Assembly: GCA_003134995.1 (NCBI GenBank)
Contig: PLDC01000011.1
Coordinates: 203,976-267,975, forward strand
Direction of reading: 5' to 3'
Length of the DNA: 64,000 nucleotides
DNA from: Acidobacteriaceae bacterium
GTDB lineage: Bacteria > Acidobacteriota > Terriglobia > Terriglobales > Acidobacteriaceae
Shown here: positions 6,585-63,873 of the stretch, piece after piece
Position numbering within the stretch: position 1 is the first letter of the stretch
How the letters are laid out: each line of letters opens with the position of its first letter
The notes under the pieces: model-generated
What the model was told of the DNA's origin: nothing
Database searches by the model: none
The model's input: the letters and a program-made list of their open reading frames with translations, nothing else
Made by a program: the position numbers and the translations under genes

Positions 6585-6892
6585 AGTCTTTCCTGTAAGG
6601 CGCTCGAAAACTCTTCTGTAGTCGCAATCCCTGCGCGGCCATGTGGCATCGTAAAGGTGCGCAATTGCTGACGGCGAACTTGCCCGGCCTTGCGCACGAA
6701 ATCTTTTCATGAGCGCTGGCGCGATGTGGGGTCGCACCGGCTTTTTTTCTGTGGATTTCTGAGCGAAATAAAGTTTAGACGTTACTCGCCCATCTGGGCC
6801 GAATTGGCTCTTGAGGCAGATTCCGGATGAATTTTTTTCTTGCGATACCTCTGAAAGCCTTGCCCAGCGCGGGTTTCGGAAAACGGATCTCG

Positions 6893-7051
6893 CAAAATAT
6901 AGTTTTCAAAGAACTTAGATATCAAAATCTTGAGAACAAAGGGCTTAGGGACGGGCACTCTGGGTGCTTTCAACCGTCACTGCCTCGACCATGATGGGCT
7001 GATTTGGATTGTGGCGCAAGGTCAGATGTCACAAGGGGGCTGTGGAAAACT
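6893..7051. repeat. Dispersed intergenic element, copy A (two 30-nt units plus 77-nt core)
   Basis: Units 6893-6922 and 6923-6952; core 6975-7051; collinear with 63714-63873, including exact 21-nt match gcgcaaggtcagatgtcacaa. Confidence 0.75.
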
Positions 7052-37317: not shown

Positions 37318-37365
37318 TGTAGCGGCGAGACGCCGCCACGACAGCCGCCGGGACGGCGGCGCTAC
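37318..37365. repeat. REP-like palindromic GC-rich element, copy 1 (rplA-rplJ spacer)
   Basis: tGTAGCGGCGAGACGCCGCCACGACAGCCGCCGGGACGGCGGCGCTAC. Confidence 0.75.
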
Positions 37366-38530: not shown

Positions 38531-38627
38531 CGTAGCGCCAGCCTCTGGCTGGCTGTCGCGGGGGCGTCCCGCCCTCGCTCATGGCGGCGAGACGCCGCCG
38601 TGACAGCCGCCGGGACGGCGGCGCTAC
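38531..38627. repeat. REP-like palindromic GC-rich element, copy 2 plus inverted relative (rplL-rpoB spacer)
   Basis: GTAGCGCCAGCCTCTGGCTGGCTGTCGCGGGGGCGTCCCGCC... then GGCGGCGAGACGCCGCCGTGACAGCCGCCGGGACGGCGGCGCTAC. Confidence 0.75.
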
Positions 38628-47888: not shown

Positions 47889-47921
47889 GCCGAAACTGCA
47901 ATCGAGAAGCGTGTGTTGATT

Positions 47922-48111
47922 TGTCATCCTGAGCGTAGCGGGTGCTTCGCGAAGCGAAGCACCCGCGAAGTCGAAGGATCCCTATAGGCTGGTACTGTTC
48001 TATACACGGCAGGGAATTCTCATCATGCGGCCGAGAGCAGCGTTTGAGCGCAGGGATTTTTCGACTCCGTAGCCGTTCGCTTCGTGAACGGCTACTCCGC
48101 TCAAGATGACA
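47922..48111. repeat. MITE-like palindromic element, copy 2 (3' of rpoC)
   Basis: TGTCATCCTGAGCG...CGCTCAAGATGACA ends; arm hairpins GGGTGCTTCGC-GAAGCGAAGCACCC and GTAGCCGTTCGCTTCGTGAACGGCTAC; core CAGGGAATTCTCATCATGCGGCCGAGAGCAGCG resembles inverted core of copy 1. Confidence 0.8.
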
Positions 48112-63561: not shown

Positions 63562-63713
63562 GTCGTTCTTCTACAGGCCTTCGAAAATCTACGATAGTGT
63601 CAGGAATGTCCCGGGTCTGCTTTGTCGGCGATCCGCCCGGTTTGTACCACTGGGTACCCCCTCCCCACCCCCCTCGATATCTGGAATCATCGAGTTAGAC
63701 ATGTTTTGCCCGG

Positions 63714-63873
63714 CAAAATCTAGGGCCTAAAGGACTTAGGCACTAAAATATAGACAACAAAGTACTTAACAACGGGAAGGGTAAATCTTTTCCCGGCGTC
63801 ACGTCCTCGACCATGATCGCGCGATTTAATTTTGTGCGCAAGGTCAGATGTCACAACGTGCCTGTGGAAATCG
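63714..63873. repeat. Dispersed intergenic element, copy B (two 30-nt units plus 77-nt core)
   Basis: Units 63714-63743 and 63744-63773; core 63797-63873; collinear with copy A. Confidence 0.75.

Follow-up and report, generated by a model that had tools for sequence, protein, structure and literature searches.

A dispersed intergenic repeat family in an Acidobacteriaceae genome, homologous to DNA upstream of uncharacterised zinc-finger genes

The window analysed here is a stretch of 64,000 nucleotides of the source genome (G000; the other G numbers denote relatives), and it contains two copies, A and B, of an intergenic element. Copy A lies beside the 3′ side of an amidase gene and is followed on its right by a minus-strand gene that the first-pass annotation had called exbBD-like. 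This name is only weakly supported, since ExbD is matched at 25.7 bits against a cut-off of 25.4 and MotA_ExbB remains under its cut-off. The features of the two copies are as follows, where HQRM is the name given here to an uncharacterised zinc-finger family, found through the protein at locus L039, that is described later.

6749..7051, minus strand (sense of the HQRM gene leader; plus in the orientation first annotated): copy A, full element, delimited by alignment with the orthologous copy in G025 and by the drop in conservation at the right end
6749..6760, plus strand: left terminal motif CTGTGGATTTCT, repeated directly by the right terminal motif; many copies have it at their left end
6766-6775: AAATAAAGTT, after the left terminal motif CTGTGGATTTCT, at the left end of copy A
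6893..6922, minus strand: 30-nt unit 1, read from the sequence; homologous to the type II HQRM gene leader
6923..6952, minus strand: 30-nt unit 2, read from the sequence and found by the unit pattern search
6983..6995, minus strand: conserved CCTCGACCATGAT block (ATCATGGTCGAGG in gene sense), from the alignment of 37 copies
7014..7051, minus strand: core GCGCAAGGTCAGATGTCACAAGGGGGCTGTGGAAAACT, the best-conserved part and right end; candidate promoter or upstream site in gene sense
7040-7051: right-end motif CTGTGGAAAACT of copy A
63596..63872, minus strand: copy B, of the C-rich subfamily, with its core at about 63833-63870

Homology between copy A and the orthologous copy in G025 extends across 6749-7051 with 82% identity in the alignment; a few bases beyond CTGTGGAAAACT, conservation is already at background. 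The segment annotated earlier, 6893-7051, is real but represents only the right half of the element. In the plus-strand orientation, the element opens with the left terminal motif and a tract that is C-rich (GGTACCCCCCTCCCC) in most subfamilies and T-rich in that of copy A. At least two 30-nt units and CCTCGACCATGAT come next, and some 17 nt of variable sequence separate CCTCGACCATGAT from the core GCGCAAGGTCAGATGTCACAAKGGGGCTGTGGAAAACTT. The terminal direct repeats are of the CTGTGGA type. What had been read from the right half by eye was reproduced: the two adjacent 30-nt units are present at 6893-6922 and 6923-6952, and the exact 13-mer cctcgaccatgat and 21-mer gcgcaaggtcagatgtcacaa occupy 6983-6995 and 7014-7034, respectively. 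The block of 77 nt said to be shared with copy B aligns over 74 nt with 63797-63870 (80%, ungapped), and the collinearity of the two copies is borne out by a blast alignment of 142 nt at 73% identity.

The description of a two-part dispersed intergenic element also holds, and far more than the two copies in the window exist. The source genome has about 45. Gene calls were available around 37 core sites, all of which fall outside predicted genes. A blast search of this genome gave 39 matches (E ≤ 1e-3), and a profile built from sequence only (71 positions) gave 47. The 19-nt core with at most three mismatches was found 45 times, against 2 for the reversed-pattern control, and the 30-nt unit pattern 44 times, against 0. 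The repeat family is far beyond chance. Among 45 congeners, core counts range from 0 to 87: G030 has 87, G025 and G064 56 each, G000 45, G014 35, and many congeners 0-5. Outside the genus, in the same family and in others, counts stay close to the control level, except for G091 with three good copies. The expansion is restricted to some species of one genus. A 34-base core pattern gave one exact match, in the acidobacterial MAG palsa_423, in the GTDB collection, which possibly does not include the source genome. Phage and plasmid records contained nothing that matched the element, and a 20-base core pattern was absent from viral contigs. A literature search found no description of the element or of a link to such a gene family, a weak negative given the poor coverage of subscription journals.

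The orientations of the genes neighbouring the 37 core sites are random (10 <<, 9 ><, 8 <>, 8 >>, and 2 one-sided). On the left, no gene comes closer than 190 nt, and on the right a gene may start a few bases from the core; these distances fit an element that lies to the left of a sharp right end. The link of copy A with the exbB-like gene is incidental, because the orthologous locus in G025 keeps the element while the DNA to its right differs.

A gene for a 185-aa Cys/His protein was found to the left of one copy (L039). A search with this protein gave five matches in G000, and HQRM genes occur widely across the Acidobacteriaceae relatives. In the alignment, the motif CxHIKxxGxxCGSPALRGExFCYFHQRM precedes a conserved helical segment. 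Searches of Pfam, NCBIfam, and PHROGs assigned HQRM to no family at a meaningful score and revealed no recognisable catalytic domain. The Cys/His spacing resembles that of the small zinc-binding proteins of DUF5763 (PF19067), which one HQRM protein matches weakly (17.1 bits, below the cut-off of 26.3), though HQRM differs in its extra conserved helical segment and long variable tail. An AlphaFold model of modest confidence (pLDDT 73.7, pTM 0.34) predicts a zinc-finger-like N-terminus and two helices, and a PDB fold search with the model gave nothing better than E = 5.

The position of the core relative to the HQRM genes should be noted. In G000, four of the five HQRM genes have the core 240-340 nt upstream in a single orientation (chance about 6e-13). 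When 29 HQRM loci of G000 and its relatives were inspected, about half had a core-like site upstream in the expected orientation, and none had one in the opposite orientation or downstream. These sites are located 203-339 nt upstream and are oriented so as to point away from the gene. In G091, which belongs to another genus, all three profile matches adjoin three HQRM genes. The HQRM leaders of G092 and G069, from genera without the core, appear by eye to have the same design, namely promoter-like TTGACA..TATAAT, 30-nt-periodic CTAACYCCTTTG.. units, a G-rich tract, and the ATG. A further upstream core match at L164, at 2 nt and with four mismatches, is chance-like. In the upstream regions of the type I HQRM genes (L144, L152, and L153), an open frame extends upstream through the 30-nt units, so that translation may truly start some 80 codons before the conserved ATG. 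Coding by the units in solo copies was rejected, over half of these copies having all three frames broken.

Copies without the gene were compared with HQRM upstream DNA in G000, G025, G030, and G035. All 53 tested are collinear with it on the same strand, with 0 matches on the opposite one; given their common ancestry, 53 is a number of copies rather than of independent events. The body of the solo copies corresponds to about 53-172 nt and the core to about 250-283 nt upstream of the gene. The best match of 28 solo copies is the type II HQRM gene of G000 (C23:747495), with up to 84% identity over 116 nt. This collinear, same-strand homology shows, at the level of sequence, that the element corresponds to the upstream region of the HQRM gene family. 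In gene sense, the core reads TTTTCCACAG-CCCC-ATTGTGACATCTGACCTTGCGC and includes a DnaA-box-like TTTTCCACA and a weak -35 (TTGCGC/TTGACA). A simple promoter scan did not call the core and called a TTGATA-18-TATATT pair within the units of copy A. From the weak -35/-10 resemblance, we infer that the core belongs to a putative HQRM promoter region.

The flanks of solo loci in G000 and its relatives contain neither an HQRM gene nor a remnant of one, and the solo copies are demonstrably insertions without the gene. At the ppa-ccmE locus, the divergent neighbours are about 150-250 bp apart in eight congeners and 600-1100 bp apart in four more, all of them element-free. In G035, the element is present there without cargo, with about 100-150 bp to ccmE, and in G000 the element is accompanied by 3.3 kb between the core and ccmE. 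On the 3′ side of the amidase gene, a core-bearing element is present in six of the 30 genomes examined (G000, G025, G064, G033, G028, and G030), G032 has a coreless piece, and none was detected in 23. The elements at this site in G064, G033, G028, and G030 belong to the C-rich subfamily and are 66-69% identical to copy A, so that the genomes either inherited one old insertion in common or acquired elements here more than once. About five of 18 relative loci examined share their site with a G000 copy. These comparisons indicate that the family has been mobile over genus-level time and that copy A is an old, inherited insertion. No target duplication is visible beside the element ends, the relatives being too diverged to provide exact empty sites.

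Orthologous solo copies have diverged more slowly than neutral sites. Between G000 and G025, the element at copy A is 83% identical (253/305), compared with 62% (150/241) at the fourfold sites of the amidase gene (p = 6e-8), and the intergenic DNA flanking copy A is 59-60% identical. At ppa, the corresponding values are 80% for the element and 66% for fourfold sites (p = 0.01). This slow evolution is evidence for a retained role, though it singles out none in particular. Gene conversion between copies could contribute to it, but selection is favoured because the best match of a copy is its ortholog.

Insertion sequences of the IS1595 type are concentrated in the copies. G000 has 14 IS1595-type transposase genes above the family cut-off, and seven of them are inside element copies (L012, L015, L016, L021, L035, L038, and L041), which make up 0.24% of the genome (p about 1.6e-15). 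The inserts are bounded by 8-bp duplications in L012 (CAAAATCT), L035 (AGGTCAGA), and L038 (CTTACTGG). Those in L015, L016, and L021 occupy a common (G/T)TTAGCGG position; two are closely related, and one is only about 71% alike. IS1595 has an apparent target preference, and its concentration in the copies makes these a candidate safe-haven target. The inserts are younger than their host copies, because they are nested and have their own ends and 8-bp duplications.

These observations are probably best explained if copy A belongs, without an accompanying gene, to a dispersed family of non-autonomous elements of about 300 bp and is a mobile copy of the HQRM upstream region. The mobile unit would comprise the putative HQRM promoter, the 30-nt-periodic leader, and the G-rich tract. 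A trans-acting factor may recognise the conserved 36-bp core and the CTGTGGA-type terminal direct repeats, and the recognised element would then be copied into new intergenic sites in a gene-repeat partnership like that of REPINs. Retained solo copies would serve the host, most simply by offering the factor that acts on the HQRM promoter additional sites to bind. The homology with HQRM upstream DNA, the gene-free insertions, the random orientation, the species-specific copy number, and the slow evolution all favour this explanation; against it, no transposase or recombinase tied to the element was found, HQRM shows no catalytic domain, the diverged relatives yielded neither a target duplication nor an exact empty site, and some congeners with HQRM genes have few or no copies. 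Mobile promoters, also called putative mobile promoters, are upstream regions of genes that occur in many dispersed copies. The element is like them in that the upstream region of one gene is scattered in many copies. It is unlike them in that the copies are about 300 bp long, strongly diverged (70-85%), and randomly oriented to both neighbours rather than placed upstream of genes. The term putative mobile promoters appears in PMC8049555.

A more specific proposal is that HQRM itself is a new DNA-binding partner of neither DDE nor HuH type, which would bind the DNA upstream of its own gene and promote or allow the copying of that DNA. The promoter/leader and its protein would then constitute a gene-repeat system, with the retained solo copies as genome-wide binding sites. 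We regard this as doubtful. G007 and G018 possess HQRM genes but few or no element copies, which means that HQRM alone is insufficient for spread.

The solo copies might instead be relics of HQRM genes, left when a whole gene unit moved and the gene decayed while its upstream region persisted. Their sequence and geometry are identical in kind to the HQRM upstream region, and the solo left end is near the position of the HQRM start codon, both of which speak for this reading. However, solo copies outnumber genes by about 10 to 1, many of them have a common left end, their flanks lack HQRM remnants, and G035 holds the element alone between ppa and ccmE. Together, these points make the relic reading improbable.

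Relationship to a MITE, that is, to an end of a classical DDE insertion sequence, is very unlikely. The element is MITE-like in being short, non-coding, dispersed, non-autonomous, and variable in copy number, and IS1595 transposons sit inside copies. The nested IS1595 units, however, bring their own ends and duplications and hence arrived later. A search of three copies for repeats found no shared terminal inverted pair, the CTGTGGA repeats at the ends being direct, and target duplications are not visible as far as the diverged relatives allow. The element has no parent insertion sequence and matches a gene upstream region, and no known IS end accounts for the similarity between copies A and B. 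Nor does the core resemble an integron attC site, as it is not an imperfect palindrome.

REP/REPIN sequences and their RAYT (TnpA-REP) partners are dispersed non-autonomous intergenic repeats and a gene family flanked by the same sequence, with moderate copy numbers that differ among species (PMC8049555, PMC8266576). Our element shares the dispersed, non-autonomous, intergenic character, the tie to a gene family, and the species-variable copy number, and the genome has eight matches to Y1-type transposases. In contrast to REPs, it is non-palindromic, about 300 bp long, without a conserved hairpin, and linked on one (upstream) side, and the partner is a zinc-finger protein without a HuH/Y1 domain. 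Of the eight Y1 genes, a single one lies at close range to a copy (about 1.2 kb, C23:636616), and none has copies on both sides. That the element is a REP/REPIN moved by a RAYT is highly improbable. The conserved ncRNA or 3′-UTR element proposed in the first-pass annotation is scarcely credible: the element is intergenic and conserved, with a right half that can be aligned across 37 copies, but RNAalifold on these copies gave nine nearly invariant and no compensatory pairs at -2.5 kcal/mol, no Rfam family matched this locus at gathering score, and the random orientation and missing covariation speak against such a role.

Synteny with relatives is often intact through the left flank and the element and broken at the right end (for copy A, window 7051 onwards). 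Toxin-antitoxin and other accessory genes are frequent at these breaks (L009, L013, L015, L028, L029, L034, L035, L038, and L042). The breaks, with toxin-antitoxin genes to the right of the core, suggested that the element might be a site-specific integration site for accessory genes; the cargo-free element at ppa-ccmE in G035 speaks against this idea. In L013 (638+ and ~3650-) and L072 (6232+, 8045-, and 8412-), right ends face each other across genes of 2-3 kb in a composite-like arrangement. A possible defence protein, with pentapeptide repeats and a C-terminal TIR domain, is encoded directly to the right of one copy (L037:3840-5096, minus strand).

Most dispersed repeats of bacteria are either palindromes associated with HuH transposases or reduced insertion sequences. 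Here the repeat corresponds to DNA upstream of the genes of a widespread and uncharacterised zinc-finger family. This correspondence suggests that a gene control region has turned into a mobile and apparently conserved genomic repeat. An uncharacterised multi-copy protein family thereby gains a testable candidate DNA partner, and the genomes, in which the element is gene-linked only, present in few copies, or present in many, form a natural series for how regulatory DNA may become mobile.

Other repeats are also present in the window. An imperfect inverted repeat at 2503-2638 has arms of 59 nt (76%) and a loop of 18 nt, and the overlapping segment 2621-2683 also pairs with 47921-47983. A GC-rich direct repeat of 44 nt, 95% identical between 37322-37365 and 38584-38627, is of a different type.
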